Positions 2,847-38,737 of a stretch of DNA of 38,737 nucleotides are shown piece after piece. The translations under genes were made by a program, and so were the position numbers. Origin of the DNA: Treponema sp. (GTDB taxonomy: Bacteria > Spirochaetota > Spirochaetia > Treponematales > Breznakiellaceae); NCBI GenBank assembly GCA_031265435.1, contig JAISCR010000064.1, positions 1 to 38,737 of the forward strand, given 5' to 3'. The notes beneath the pieces were generated by a model, which saw only the letters and a list, made by a program, of their open reading frames with translations, was not told the DNA's origin and ran no database searches. Positions within the stretch are counted from its first letter, which is position 1; every line of letters starts with the position of its first letter.

Positions 2847-3974
2847 TTACAAAGACTCTATTTCGTTGCTAAGATCACGGGCTGTGGCGCTCTCTGTTAT
2901 AACAGCGGTATATCCCGATGCATCCTCTCCGGAGCCACTCAACGTAATAGTATAATCATATCCGTTTTTTATGACCGGCGAAGTACTTTCGCTCTCAAAT
3001 CTAACCGGTACCTGTATAGCACCCTGGTAGAGAGTACACACAAGGTTTTGCGCTGTTCCACCAGCAGTGCTTTCCAACTCAAAGGTAAGGGTTTCGCCGG
3101 ATGCTACGCCGTCGGCAGCGCCATAACCATTCTGAGCCACCAAATTCCTGGAAGCGGCAATGGTAAAACGGGCTCCCTGATTAGTGACGTTGTTGGTTAT
3201 GGTCATATAAGCAACCGGCGAAGTAAGTGAATTCTTAATATTGTTCCATGGATCCTGACTTGGGAAATAATAGGTTTGAATGGAACTTGGATTGCCAATT
3301 GATCGGGGATCGACAGTAACTCCGGCAAATACCGATGTCGCCTGCAGGGTTGTTACCTGACCGTTGCTTTTGTTGTAGTAGACAAACACAGGGAATACCA
3401 CCATTTGGGTCTGCGAATCGGCGTAGAGCAGGTAATTTGCCGCCAGTCTTGGCAGATACCCGATTTTTTCTCCGTCCGGGCTGTTTTTCCTCAGTTCCAT
3501 TCCGATAAGCCCGGTATTGTTCACCTTGTAACCAAAATCCCCTGTCCAATTGGGGCTGATCTCCGTCCTGAATTTTTTGCCTTGCCCATAGGTTGCCATA
3601 GCCGAATAATCGATCTTCGCCAATGAAAGGTTGTTTTTATTTGCATCGTACTCATCTTTCGTCATACCACGCAGGATAAGATAGCCGCCAATCCCGAAAT
3701 CGTCTACATCGTCGGATATGTCAAAGGTTTTCGTAGACAGGGCCTGAACACCGCCAATTATGTTTGATGTCGAGGGGGTCTGACCCTGGAAGATGACCAT
3801 ATCCTTTGACGTGTTGTTGATGATAGTCAGGGTTCCGTTGCTTTCGTTCTGCCAGATAATGCCATCGCCATTGCCGCCGCCCCCAGTATCATCATCCCCC
3901 GCCGGATTCGAGCAAGCCATCAAGACCAAGGCCGCCGCCAAAAGAAGCAAAAAAAACGTGTTTCTTGTCTTCAT
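2847..3974 (-). CDS. Large lipoprotein behind a poly-G leader
   Basis: A 375-residue protein starting MKTRNTFFLLLLAAALVLMAC, a signal peptide with lipobox LMAC, then a DDDTGGGGNG linker typical of spirochaetal surface lipoproteins. The module GTLTIINNTSKDMVIFQG follows, matching those in the three downstream lipoproteins. The remainder is beta-rich with repeated short 'TITNN' and 'FELES' strands; I recognise no catalytic motif. The start at 3974 follows AAGGAGAATGAG. An in-frame ATG seven codons upstream would lie before this site and is rejected. The gene is preceded by a small hairpin, a terminator-like hairpin and a 20-G tract, suggesting regulated or phase-variable expression. Confidence 0.8.
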   Translation of the reverse strand: MKTRNTFFLLLLAAALVLMACSNPAGDDDTGGGGNGDGIIWQNESNGTLTIINNTSKDMVIFQGQTPSTSNIIGGVQALSTKTFDISDDVDDFGIGGYLILRGMTKDEYDANKNNLSLAKIDYSAMATYGQGKKFRTEISPNWTGDFGYKVNNTGLIGMELRKNSPDGEKIGYLPRLAANYLLYADSQTQMVVFPVFVYYNKSNGQVTTLQATSVFAGVTVDPRSIGNPSSIQTYYFPSQDPWNNIKNSLTSPVAYMTITNNVTNQGARFTIAASRNLVAQNGYGAADGVASGETLTFELESTAGGTAQNLVCTLYQGAIQVPVRFESESTSPVIKNGYDYTITLSGSGEDASGYTAVITESATARDLSNEIESL

Positions 3975-4037
3975 CTCATTCTCCTTCTTGTACATAAAAA
4001 AATATTTTTACAGAGATACCCCTGTAATGAACGGTGG

Positions 4038-4082
4038 AAAATAAAAAAGGCCGGGATGTTCCTGTAACGGAATATCCCGGCC
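4038..4082 (-). terminator. Intrinsic terminator-like hairpin in the lipoprotein leader
   Basis: A 14-pair stem (4049-4062 with 4069-4082, one mismatch on the minus-strand RNA) has a six-base loop and is followed on the minus strand by TTTTTTATTTT. The plus-strand side has no U-tract, so it acts in the minus direction only. The upstream gene is divergent, so no minus-strand gene lies upstream for it to end. Confidence 0.7.
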
Positions 4083-4195
4083 TAAATTAGACAATATAAT
4101 AATAAAAGCTACATTTTCAGCAAGATTTTCACAGGGGGGATACGCTATATATGGTGTGGTATAGGCTGTATCAGGAAAAACTACGCTATATGTAT

Positions 4196-4215
4196 GGGGG
4201 GGGGGGGGGGGGGGG
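4196..4215. repeat. Homopolymer of 20 G
   Basis: An uninterrupted run of 20 G on the plus strand in a gene-free region. Runs of this length change length easily during replication. The matching tract at 38609-38627 has 19 G. Confidence 0.95.
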
Positions 4216-4494
4216 TAAAATAAACTGATGCAAAAAACCCAATTTAAAGGCCGGAAGGCAGAGATGAATCGAAACAGTGTCAGGTAAAAGCCTAAACGCA
4301 AGGGCTCCGGACACCACTTTTACAACCCCCAGTCATATCTGTTGTATTCAATATATCACCTTCTCCCCAAAAAAATCAAGGGTAATTTACACTCCCATCT
4401 TCGTTTTCTCTTCCGTTCGTGGTGTTTGAGTGGTTCGTGGTTAAATTTCTTCGGAATCCGCGGGTCAAGTATAGCCGCCCTGCCCCAGGGGATG
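4216..4494. other. Gene-free stretch between the poly-G tract and the next promoter
   Basis: I see no credible gene here. The short open frames on either strand lack ribosome sites, and one is just the translation of the homopolymer as a proline run. Confidence 0.6.
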
Positions 4495-4522
4495 TTGATT
4501 TTTAAGAAAATCAGCGTATAAT
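4495..4522 (+). promoter_or_regulatory. Promoter placing the start point at the ATG (leaderless mRNA)
   Basis: TTGATT (4495-4500), a 16-base spacer, and a perfect TATAAT (4517-4522). The ATG of the next gene begins seven bases later, where transcription should start. No ribosome site is present between them. Confidence 0.7.
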
Positions 4523-4529
4523 AACATCC

Positions 4530-7274
4530 ATGGCTAACAAACCCGGAAAAAAAAGCAAGAAACCATGGATTATACTCAGTATCATCCTTTTCATTATCAT
4601 CGGCATACCGCTCATCGTGCTGGGCCTGTCCTTTATCGGGCGAATCGATCCCGACTCGGTTATCCCCGATTCCTTTGATCTTTATGCCAGTGTCCCCAAC
4701 CCGGTGGATCTGACGGAGAAGGTCCTGAGCCATGAATCCCTGCCCGAGATCCTGGCGGTTCAGGAGCTTGCCCCCCTTGTTCCCGTTCTGGCGGATTTTG
4801 AAAGTTCCGGGGTTCTGGGGAACCGCTTCGTCCGTTTTGCCGCCAAGGGCAGGCTCGACGCGGCCTCCTATGAGGAAGGGAGGCTCCTCGCTTCCTGGAA
4901 CATGGGGATTTGTTCCCCCCTCCTCCGCTTCCTCCCCGCCATTGCCGGACGCCTGACCATCCCGAACCTCTACTACGTCCAGGCGGGGAAGAATTCACGC
5001 TTTGAATACCGCATGGATAATGGGACGGTTTTTTACATCGGCCCCTACAAAAATCTGCTGATCCTGTCAAATAATTCCGCCCTCTTTGAGTCGGTTCTCC
5101 AGGGTACTTCCCGGGACCGGGACATACGGAAGTCTTCGGCCAAGGATTTCTTTGCCAGGGATTACGACGTTGCCTTTCTTCTCTCCTCCTCCGCCCTCTC
5201 GTCTCTCGTAGGAACCGCGGACCCCAATATCGCCTCTACCGTCAACCTGCTCCGGTTTCCGGGCGCTGTGGAGGCCAGCCTCAGAGTGCTGCCCAAGCAG
5301 TTGGAACTCAGCATAGTTACCCCTCTCGATTCCGGTTCCCCGGCGCTCAAAACCATCATCGAAAGGAATTCCGCCGCCGCCGGCCTTACCGCTATCATCC
5401 CGGAGAACACCCAGTACCTCACCCTCCTTTCGGCCGGCCCTTTGCGGGAGATCCTCGACGCCGGATCGGCGGTGTCGGGAGCCGAATTTGACCGGACCTA
5501 TAGCCAGGCCGATTCGGCGGCAAAGTCCCTTTTCGGCCTCAGCCTGGATGACATACTCTGTTCCTGGACCGGGTCCGAATTTGCCGTCTTTGGCCTCGAA
5601 GGCCGTCCCAATCCGGTCATCGCCGTCGAAATCAGGGACGAGGCAAAGCGGCGGGAGATATTCAACAAGATCTTTCAGTCTATTTTTATAGAAGAAAACA
5701 TCAATTTGAATCTGGACGGCAACCGCATCCCCAGAATCCAGGTGCCGGGTTTTCTTGCTGTCTTCCTGAAATGGCTGAACGTGGAGGTTCCTTCCCCTTA
5801 TTATACAGTGCACGATAACTACCTCCTGGTCTCGGAATCCGCCGAAACTCTGCTGGCGGCGGTCAACGCCATCCGCGGGAATGCCGTGCTCCCCAAGACA
5901 GAACTCTGGCGGACCCTGGCCGGAAATTCCGCCGGAAGGCCCGCCTCCTCCCGCGGCAGCGGGGATCTCAATTCCTTCAGCCTCTATTATTCTTTGGACC
6001 GTTCTCTCCCCTTTTTTCTTAGGGGAAACTCCATGGCCGCCTCGGTCTTGAAGCTCTACCGCCAGGGACTGGTCAGGCTTTCCCTGGAACAGCGGACCGC
6101 CAGGATCAGCCTCTCGGTTATTCCCGGCGCGGGGAAGGGGATCATGCCGGTTCCCGGCTTCCCGGTCGAAACCGGTGGCAGGACGGATAACCGGCTCTAC
6201 GGCGTGCGCTCGGGCCAGGAAAGCCGCCTTCTCCTGGTCAGGGACAACGCGGCCCTTGCCCTCAACCCGGCGGACAGGACTTTCTCGGAAATGCCCAATC
6301 CGGGAGGTCCGGGAAGCCCAGGCAGGGAGGGAAGCCTCCTCTACCTGATCCCGGCGGAAGACGAAAATTTTCCGGTCAGGAACGCCGGGGGAGACGATGG
6401 TATTGCCTGGGTGGTGAATTCCCAGGGGAGGGTCAGCCTGGTAAACAAAAACATGGAAAGCCTCCGGGGTTTCCCCGTCATAACCGGAGTACGGCTCTCC
6501 TCGGCTCCGGCGGTTCAGGGCGGAAAGCTGTATCTCTCCGGTGAAGACGGCTATGTGCATATCGTGGACAAACAGGGGGCGGTTTCCCGCTGGGAAACGA
6601 GGTTCACACCCCCCCTCCTCTCTCCCCCTTCGTTCCTGGAATGGCACAATTCAGTCTACGCCGCCAGCTACCCAAAGAGCTTCCTGGGGGAACTCTGGCT
6701 TCAGGATCTTGCGGGGAAGGCCCTGCCCGGCTGGCCTGTCTTTGCGTCCGGCATAGCCTTCGGCTCTCCCCTGCTTTTCGGCTCCAACGGTTCCGGCGTT
6801 TCTAACAATTCTAACGCCAGGCTCCTCATGGCCTTTATTACCCAGGCGGGAGAGCTGACGGTGTACGCGGAAGACGCCGTCCCGCTGCCGACATTCCCTT
6901 TAAGCCTGGAAGGGGTGTTTTATGTTCAGCCTGTTTTTGACGGTGAATTTTTATGGCTCCTTAACGACAGGGGGATGCTGTATCAAATCAGCCTGGAAGG
7001 GGAGATACTCAGCCAGGAAATACCCCGCCTCTCGGTAAAGGAAAGCGGGTTTATCACCACGGCCGATGTGGATGGAGACGGGATTGGGGAGATTTTCTTT
7101 TCCGGCGAAGGGAATGTTCTCTACGGTTATAAGCGGAATTTTATGTCCCTCGACGGCTTCCCCCTCCCTGTCCGGGGAAGGCCGGTCATCGCCGATATTA
7201 ACGGCGACGGGAAGATCGAATTCGCCGGCGCGGGGATGGACAACCGGATCTATATGTGGCAGTTCAGGAAATAG
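4530..7274 (+). CDS. Membrane-anchored protein with a C-terminal beta-propeller-like domain
   Basis: A 914-residue protein. Lysine-rich residues 1-14 precede a transmembrane helix (about 15-37, IILSIILFIIIGIPLIVLGL), so most of the chain should lie outside the membrane. Residues about 45-520 have alternating hydrophobic strands and resemble DUF3352-type sequences (a weak guess). Residues from about 570 to 914 form short repeats of 'GKLYLSGEDGYVHIVD' type, as in PQQ/FG-GAP propellers. The last two carry DVDGDGIGEI and DINGDGKIEF, the calcium-binding FG-GAP pattern. A strong promoter ends seven bases before the ATG and no ribosome site is visible, so the mRNA is probably leaderless. Function unknown; a scaffold or binding role is an inference. 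Confidence 0.75.
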   Translation: MANKPGKKSKKPWIILSIILFIIIGIPLIVLGLSFIGRIDPDSVIPDSFDLYASVPNPVDLTEKVLSHESLPEILAVQELAPLVPVLADFESSGVLGNRFVRFAAKGRLDAASYEEGRLLASWNMGICSPLLRFLPAIAGRLTIPNLYYVQAGKNSRFEYRMDNGTVFYIGPYKNLLILSNNSALFESVLQGTSRDRDIRKSSAKDFFARDYDVAFLLSSSALSSLVGTADPNIASTVNLLRFPGAVEASLRVLPKQLELSIVTPLDSGSPALKTIIERNSAAAGLTAIIPENTQYLTLLSAGPLREILDAGSAVSGAEFDRTYSQADSAAKSLFGLSLDDILCSWTGSEFAVFGLEGRPNPVIAVEIRDEAKRREIFNKIFQSIFIEENINLNLDGNRIPRIQVPGFLAVFLKWLNVEVPSPYYTVHDNYLLVSESAETLLAAVNAIRGNAVLPKTELWRTLAGNSAGRPASSRGSGDLNSFSLYYSLDRSLPFFLRGNSMAASVLKLYRQGLVRLSLEQRTARISLSVIPGAGKGIMPVPGFPVETGGRTDNRLYGVRSGQESRLLLVRDNAALALNPADRTFSEMPNPGGPGSPGREGSLLYLIPAEDENFPVRNAGGDDGIAWVVNSQGRVSLVNKNMESLRGFPVITGVRLSSAPAVQGGKLYLSGEDGYVHIVDKQGAVSRWETRFTPPLLSPPSFLEWHNSVYAASYPKSFLGELWLQDLAGKALPGWPVFASGIAFGSPLLFGSNGSGVSNNSNARLLMAFITQAGELTVYAEDAVPLPTFPLSLEGVFYVQPVFDGEFLWLLNDRGMLYQISLEGEILSQEIPRLSVKESGFITTADVDGDGIGEIFFSGEGNVLYGYKRNFMSLDGFPLPVRGRPVIADINGDGKIEFAGAGMDNRIYMWQFRK

Positions 7275-37882: not shown

Positions 37883-38386
37883 TCACACTTTCTTCCCATT
37901 CATCCAGTCATTGTACATGAAAGACCACCAGGGATTATTCAAACGCCACACAGTGTTAGAGGCGGCAAATATCGATATTTCCGCGCCGTAATTTATGTTG
38001 TACGGATGACTATTGAACCAGCTTGCCCATTGGCTCTCGGTCCAAGTTGTGGAAAATTCGTAGCTGCCGCCATCGTAGTCACCCCCTGTTCCGGTTCCAC
38101 CGTCACCTCCTCCGGTACTCCAATTAGAATACATAGTACCCCACCAGGAATGCTGGGCAATCCAAGTACCGTTTGCGGTTATAAATGTTGCTAAGTCGGA
38201 AAGAGCAGATTCGTCGGTGGGAGAGTGAGTATCGAACCAGTTTTGCCACTGGCTTTCGCTCCAACTTGTGGAAAGACTATCGCCTCCTCCTCCATCGTCT
38301 CCTCCAGTGGGGCAGCCTGTGAAAACAAGACCGCAGCCAAGTACCACTACCAGCATCCCGATAAAAAACAATCCGCCTTTTTTCAT
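37883..38386 (-). CDS. Lipoprotein with a duplicated Trp-rich 52-residue unit, behind a poly-G leader
   Basis: A 167-residue protein. The signal peptide ends in lipobox VFTGC (Cys25), followed by an Asp/Gly linker. The mature part has two copies of a 52-residue unit (38-89 and 110-161). They begin SLSTSWSESQWQNWFDTH and EFSTTWTESQWASWFNSH and end with WWGTMYSNW and WWSFMYNDW, and are joined by a Gly-rich linker. Trp residues are conserved between copies, suggesting a small helical module that may bind a ligand or membrane. I recognise no family. GGAGGAATATCGCA lies before the ATG. The leader carries a small hairpin, a terminator-like hairpin and a 19-G tract. Confidence 0.78.
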   Translation of the reverse strand: MKKGGLFFIGMLVVVLGCGLVFTGCPTGGDDGGGGDSLSTSWSESQWQNWFDTHSPTDESALSDLATFITANGTWIAQHSWWGTMYSNWSTGGGDGGTGTGGDYDGGSYEFSTTWTESQWASWFNSHPYNINYGAEISIFAASNTVWRLNNPWWSFMYNDWMNGKKV

Positions 38387-38450
38387 TGCGATATTCCTCC
38401 GCGTTTATGGTCCGCCTGACCATGAGTTATGGGCTTTGCGCGTACGGCGC

Positions 38451-38493
38451 AAAAAATAAAAGCCGGTTTCTCCGTCGTGACGAAGAAACCGGC
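38451..38493 (-). terminator. Intrinsic terminator-like hairpin in the second lipoprotein leader
   Basis: GCCGGTTTCT (38462-38471) pairs with AGAAACCGGC (38484-38493), and CGTC/GACG extend it inside after one mismatch. On the minus strand it is followed by TTTTATTTTTT. Its near edge is 76 bases from the ATG. Confidence 0.65.
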
Positions 38494-38608
38494 CTTTGTT
38501 TCAAAGGAAAAGAGAACGTAGAGCGGCCGGCAGGTCTTGCCGGCGGTATTGCCTATAGATGAAGGGGAATCCGCCGCTGGCGGAAGGCTATATCCTACTA
38601 TTCCTATC

Positions 38609-38627
38609 GGGGGGGGGGGGGGGGGGG
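38609..38627. repeat. Homopolymer of 19 G
   Basis: An uninterrupted run of 19 G on the plus strand. It is in the same position relative to a lipoprotein start as the 20-G tract at 4196. Confidence 0.95.
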
Positions 38628-38737
38628 TAGTGGTAATAATTGCGAAAAATTGATACAACAAACCATATTCACCACAACCAAATGCCAAAAAAAAAGTTTT
38701 TAAAGCGCCAAAGTTTCCTGCGGGTTACAACGGGAGA

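Follow-up and report, generated by a model that had tools for sequence, protein, structure and literature searches.

The window, a stretch of 38,737 nucleotides, is one contig (C54) of a Treponema sp. assembly of 3.67 Mb, 206 contigs and 84% completeness. On its minus strand, at 2847..3974, lies a lipoprotein gene whose start is likely ATG 3974 (MKTRNTFFLLLLAAALVLMACSN, with a lipobox) and not 3995, behind the ribosome site AAGGAG (3981-3986, minus strand). Orthologues of this gene occur mainly in Treponema or spirochaete MAGs, including one that is 82% identical in Treponema sp. MAG Roe453_bin134; the style of their isolate names suggests that these MAGs derive from termite-gut surveys, and Breznakiellaceae is the probable family. 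A relative with 61% identity, preceded by a C15 leader (L107), sits on a contig labelled Candidatus Fibrimonadaceae, reflecting either a mis-binned contig or gene transfer. Pfam assigns no family to the window lipoprotein or its downstream neighbours. Three further genes (693-2749) follow on the same strand and encode signal peptides or lipoboxes; together with the lipoprotein gene they perhaps form one switched operon.

Organization of the tract loci in the window

Upstream of the lipoprotein gene, the plus strand carries a run of 20 G (4196..4215), read as C20 on the gene strand, with unique sequence on each flank and an exact length that is the assembly consensus value. The tract lies within a putative leader ORF of 97 codons (4008..4301, minus strand). 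This ORF would begin at TTG 4301, a weak start with GGAG set close to it, 3 nt ahead, and it ends at TAA (4008-4010), 33 nt ahead of ATG 3974 and without an ATGA overlap. Past C20, the three reading frames end at +10, +15 and +188, and an intrinsic terminator hairpin spans +112 to +148. Exactly one frame crosses the hairpin, giving a frame-dependent leader stop of the type described at the streptococcal pil1 locus. The terminator (4048..4083, minus strand; -26.2 kcal/mol, z -6.5) has 14 pairs with one internal mismatch, UUUUUUAUUUU directly after it and a U-rich tail at 4047-4038. Its position between repeat and gene is likewise a pil1-type feature, and it is kept with paired changes in loci L106 and L165. 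A small hairpin, TTACAGGG-GTAT-CTCTGTAA (4008..4027, minus strand; loop GUAU, -8.4 kcal/mol, z -4.1), forms the end of the leader ORF and encodes GVSL*. A preliminary description had listed C20 on the gene strand, a 14-bp hairpin with a U-tract about 110 bases past it, a 6-bp hairpin, a ribosome site and ATG, in this order. Every main point of that layout holds, the terminator beginning 112 nt after the tract; only the small hairpin differs, with 8 pairs in place of 6.

A shorter run, G6 on the plus strand (4134..4139; C6 on the gene strand), corresponds by its flanks to the tracts of L106 (C12) and L165 (C8), and the window C20 lies about 60 nt farther upstream than this counterpart. Hairpins resembling the small one, with a GTAT loop, precede ribosome sites in L106, L109, L156, L158, L165 and L079. 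In the last five of these, the hairpin and then T(A/G)AAAATA stand directly before the ribosome site; the genes behind encode lipoproteins or solute-binding proteins, and some of the hairpins show paired changes, such as GGC-GTAT-GCC in L158. The GTAT hairpin was considered as a genome-wide element and rejected, with one good match in the source genome and a few in relatives. An Rfam search of the region gave nothing near the gathering score.

A sigma-70 promoter is predicted on the minus strand at 4350..4379, composed of TTGATT (4379-4374), N18 and TATATT (4355-4350), with a transcription start expected near 4343. It ends 134 nt before the tract, and its score is equalled in 4% of shuffles of the region. 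Its position agrees with that at other loci: where the sequence extends far enough, most have a near-consensus sigma-70 promoter on the gene strand, 42-180 nt ahead of the tract. An exact TTGACA within 220 nt is found upstream of the tract at 10/16 loci, downstream at 1 and on the opposite strand at 0. These predictions suggest that the tract is probably part of a transcribed leader, unlike the poly-G promoters of T. pallidum, whose layout, with poly-G between the -35 and -10 elements or at the transcription start, does not match the predicted one here, no fitting spacer being present at the tract. A role of the tract as a promoter spacer was dropped once the upstream promoters were located. 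On the plus strand, a further promoter-like sequence (4495-4530; TTGATT-N16-TATAAT) ends 7 nt before the ATG of a divergent gene (4530), the mRNA of which would be leaderless unless its start is misplaced.

With the assembled C20, a leader begun at TTG 4301 would put the window locus in the ON state. If translation instead began at GTG 4314/4317 or TTG 4242/4233, in another frame, C20 would correspond to OFF. Clearer leader starts are found at sister loci, with GGAGG-ATG in L165 and ATG in L188. Because of its weak TTG start, the missing ATGA and the 8% of shuffles that yield an open frame as long as its own when this single locus is taken alone, the window locus is not the cleanest case, and it is assigned on the strength of the pattern seen at many loci.

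A second locus, at the opposite end of the window (38383-38661), repeats this architecture more completely and is paralogous to L097. By alignment with L083 and L097, its leader ORF would start at a TTG (38659..38661, minus strand). A G19 tract follows (38609..38627, plus strand; C19 on the gene strand), then a terminator hairpin within the leader ORF (38458..38497, minus strand; -26.9 kcal/mol) and an ATGA in which the leader stop overlaps the lipoprotein start (38383..38386, minus strand). The lipoprotein gene itself (MKKGGLFFIGMLVVVLGCGLVFTGC) occupies 37883..38386 on the minus strand. One frame runs for 222 nt, through the terminator, to the TGA inside ATGA, and the remaining two end at +5 and +21. 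L097, L073 and L085 show the same pattern. A comparison of the leaders of the second locus and L097 revealed no third-position excess of changes. With the post-tract peptide not conserved by codon position, it appears that openness of the frame is kept there, and not the peptide.

Recurrence across the genome and the family

The source genome contains 57 runs of at least 12 G/C, compared with about 0.6-1 expected from base composition; for runs of at least 20 G/C, the expectation is about 1e-5 per 3.67-Mb genome. Runs of at least 12 G are carried by 108/120 genomes of the family. In the source genome, where 2-5 kb around each tract was read, C falls on the gene strand in most tract-gene pairs (30 intergenic C, 5 G). 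At contig ends, long G runs (48-73 nt, broken by single C, as in G48-CG11 and G73) look like sequencing artefacts and were left out. An assembly artefact is unlikely as the source of the tract loci, since equivalents exist in the finished, single-contig genome G066 and also in G077. In G066, L186 has C16, a terminator of -18.2 kcal/mol, a 73-codon read-through frame, ATGA and a lipoprotein gene, and L188 has C12, ATGA and a lipoprotein gene; L252 of G077 combines C14, two terminators and an 85-codon frame with a lipoprotein gene. L106, the leader of the orthologue in MAG Roe453_bin134, has C12, a terminator with paired stem changes and the small hairpin, and its open frame ends in GVSL*, the same as the window leader. 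A second, degenerate copy of this leader in the same genome carries C8.

When leaders were randomised with their dinucleotide content retained, a leader stop coupled to the gene start (ATGA or a one-base overlap) was found at 7/18 C-tract loci of the source genome against 1.1 expected (P=1.6e-5), and at 9/32 loci of other family genomes against 2.9 expected (P=6e-4). An earlier, slightly different version of the test gave 8/20 against 1.4 expected (P=7.6e-6). In addition, at least one frame crosses the terminator at all 10 terminator-bearing tract loci, with 4.7 expected (P=8e-5), and at most of the 10 it is a single frame. These P values are somewhat optimistic, as not all loci are independent (the second locus and L097; the window locus and L106). 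Several tests were shaped during exploration of the source genome, and the other genomes constitute a partial replication. Terminators are confined to about one in three tract leaders, and ATGA endings also occur at loci without a terminator call (L060, L061, L064, L071, L084, L089 and L105). Enrichment of lipoprotein genes after tracts is weak (12/28 versus 26/109, p=0.06).

Directly ahead of the tract, about 20 loci across the family encode the peptide [NG]SLY[YS][KN]EL, as in MLRNSLYYKEL (L165), MSVNTRNYLYYNELS (L188), MKLLGSLYSKNL (L060) and ANSLYYNEL (L252). Over 20 copies of the motif, mean entropy by codon position is 0.56, 0.59 and 1.03, with synonymous changes that include TCC/TCT, TTG/TTA, TAT/TAC and GAA/GAG. 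Variation is thus highest at the third position, and the pre-tract motif behaves as expected of coding sequence.

Other kinds of tract occur in the family as well. Genome G078 (L112-L141) has 265 G runs, and about 30 that were sampled are nearly all 13-14 nt long and scattered in or after genes; they apparently reflect a different, genome-wide process and were kept out of the pooled counts. Some tracts fall among the earliest codons of a transporter or lipoprotein gene (L067, 2467-2504; L095, 2573-2586; L077, 1705-1719), as in MKTRNGFMPPPPPTLIM, and represent classical frame-switching contingency genes. Loss of mismatch repair was rejected as the cause of the many tracts, with MutS in all ten genomes checked, tract-rich and tract-poor.

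A candidate frame switch and its alternatives

The anatomy of the window locus and its recurrence make it reasonably likely that this is a phase-variable leader-ORF attenuator in which the C tract acts as a frame switch. Transcription would begin upstream of the tract, and ribosomes would start on the short leader ORF that contains it. Gain or loss of one base by slipped-strand mispairing would then shift the frame downstream. In the ON frame, the ribosome would trail RNA polymerase over the terminator, which could not fold, and the lipoprotein gene would be transcribed; at sister loci, where the leader stop overlaps the gene start in ATGA, translation would be handed over by coupling. In the OFF frames, the ribosome would halt no more than about 15 nt past the tract, with some 100 nt still separating it from the hairpin, so that the terminator could form and expression would fall. 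The preliminary description had proposed that the gene is phase-variable or that its transcript is attenuated at the hairpin. This proposal is partly supported and takes a more specific form, in which the tract sets the frame of a leader ORF running over the hairpin.

A broader reading can be offered only tentatively. In termite-gut treponemes, a short leader ORF whose conserved N-terminal peptide has the consensus NSLYYNEL, together with a homopolymer tract and a frame for read-through, may constitute a dispersed, portable switch module placed before varied surface genes, to which the frame would be tied by ATGA or by an internal terminator. If true, each genome would have dozens of copies that switch independently of one another, and the combinatorial surface diversity would be very large.

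Three other explanations make different use of the same elements. Phase variation of the promoter type, in which the tract alters the spacing or the -35 element of an overlapping promoter, as at T. pallidum tpr and tp0126 or Neisseria porA and opc, is established in a related genus (PMC7864442), and AT-rich words resembling -10 elements flank several tracts, CATATAG just past the window C20 among them. However, better promoters lie 42-180 nt upstream at most loci and no spacer of 16-18 nt fits with C20; this explanation predicts neither the one open frame nor the ATGA overlaps, and it is unlikely here. Those same frame and ATGA patterns are also not predicted if the leader acts at the RNA level only, with the C run recognised by a small RNA or a protein under graded control by tract length, or changing the terminator by base-pairing inside the leader. 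The tract does lie within the predicted leader transcript, and the G repeat of H. pylori tlpB, read by RepG, offers a precedent (PMC8295292), but an exclusively RNA-level leader seems very improbable.

The terminator might, alternatively, do no more than insulate the lipoprotein gene, with the real promoter between terminator and gene, the small hairpin as an operator and the tract incidental. Conservation of the GTAT-loop hairpin before ribosome sites, also at loci free of tract and terminator (L109, L158), is in keeping with such an arrangement. Yet the interval from 4048 to 3974 contains no good promoter, the upstream neighbour gene is divergent and hence supplies no read-through to block, and each of the 10 loci has a frame that runs across its terminator. 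Insulation is a rather improbable account.

Relation to known systems

In classical attenuators of the trp and tna type, the position of the ribosome on a leader peptide decides whether a terminator forms, and the leader serves to sense amino acids. The attenuator proposed here would instead be set by DNA slippage. A closer parallel is found at the pil1 locus of S. gallolyticus, where repeat changes in a leader peptide shift its stop so that it reaches or passes a premature terminator, whose folding is then prevented by ribosomes, as supported by mutants and RT-PCR (PMC3894217). Like pil1/pil3, the loci described here combine a predicted promoter, a putative leader ORF with a slippage-prone repeat whose number decides the stop, and a terminator before a surface gene, and read-through is predicted only if the leader frame reaches the hairpin. 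Unlike pil1/pil3, which use GCAGA repeats at two loci, they have a homopolymer C tract, belong to a spirochaete and are numerous in each genome; ATGA overlaps of leader stop and gene start are frequent among them, and many lack a terminator. In S. gallolyticus, 28 nt or more separate the stop of an OFF leader from the terminator (PMC3894217), compared with about 100 nt for the OFF frames here. The proposed switch thus resembles pil1 in its working but, having no GCAGA pentanucleotide repeat, is not its homologue.

Among the papers that could be searched, none was found on leader-peptide/premature-terminator phase variation with a homopolymer or in a spirochaete, and none combined phase variation with translational coupling or an upstream ORF with homopolymer tracts. 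Such phase variation is on record for two pilus loci in a single Streptococcus, and the loci reported here would be a homopolymer version at many spirochaete loci. If this is right, frame-switching leaders are in use at many surface loci throughout a whole family of gut symbionts, and long-read metagenomes could reveal on/off states directly through the length of each tract.

The variable G repeat in the leader of H. pylori tlpB, whose length is read gradually by the small RNA RepG (PMC8295292), has a parallel in the window tract, a presumably variable homopolymer within a predicted leader transcript; in contrast, the window anatomy points to a frame switch. The precedent first suggested for this locus was that of T. 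pallidum tprE/G/J/L and tp0126, where poly-G in the promoter alters initiation (PMC7864442). Here, too, a treponeme has poly-G/C tracts ahead of genes for the outer surface, and phase variation is likely. Nevertheless, with near-consensus promoters upstream of the tract, this precedent is not the closest one: the tract lies downstream of its predicted promoter, within a putative leader ORF, and it is the gene strand that carries the C run. If right, the proposed reading also cautions that a poly-G tract close to a treponemal gene is not necessarily a promoter element and that leader ORFs can be concealed at intergenic tracts.
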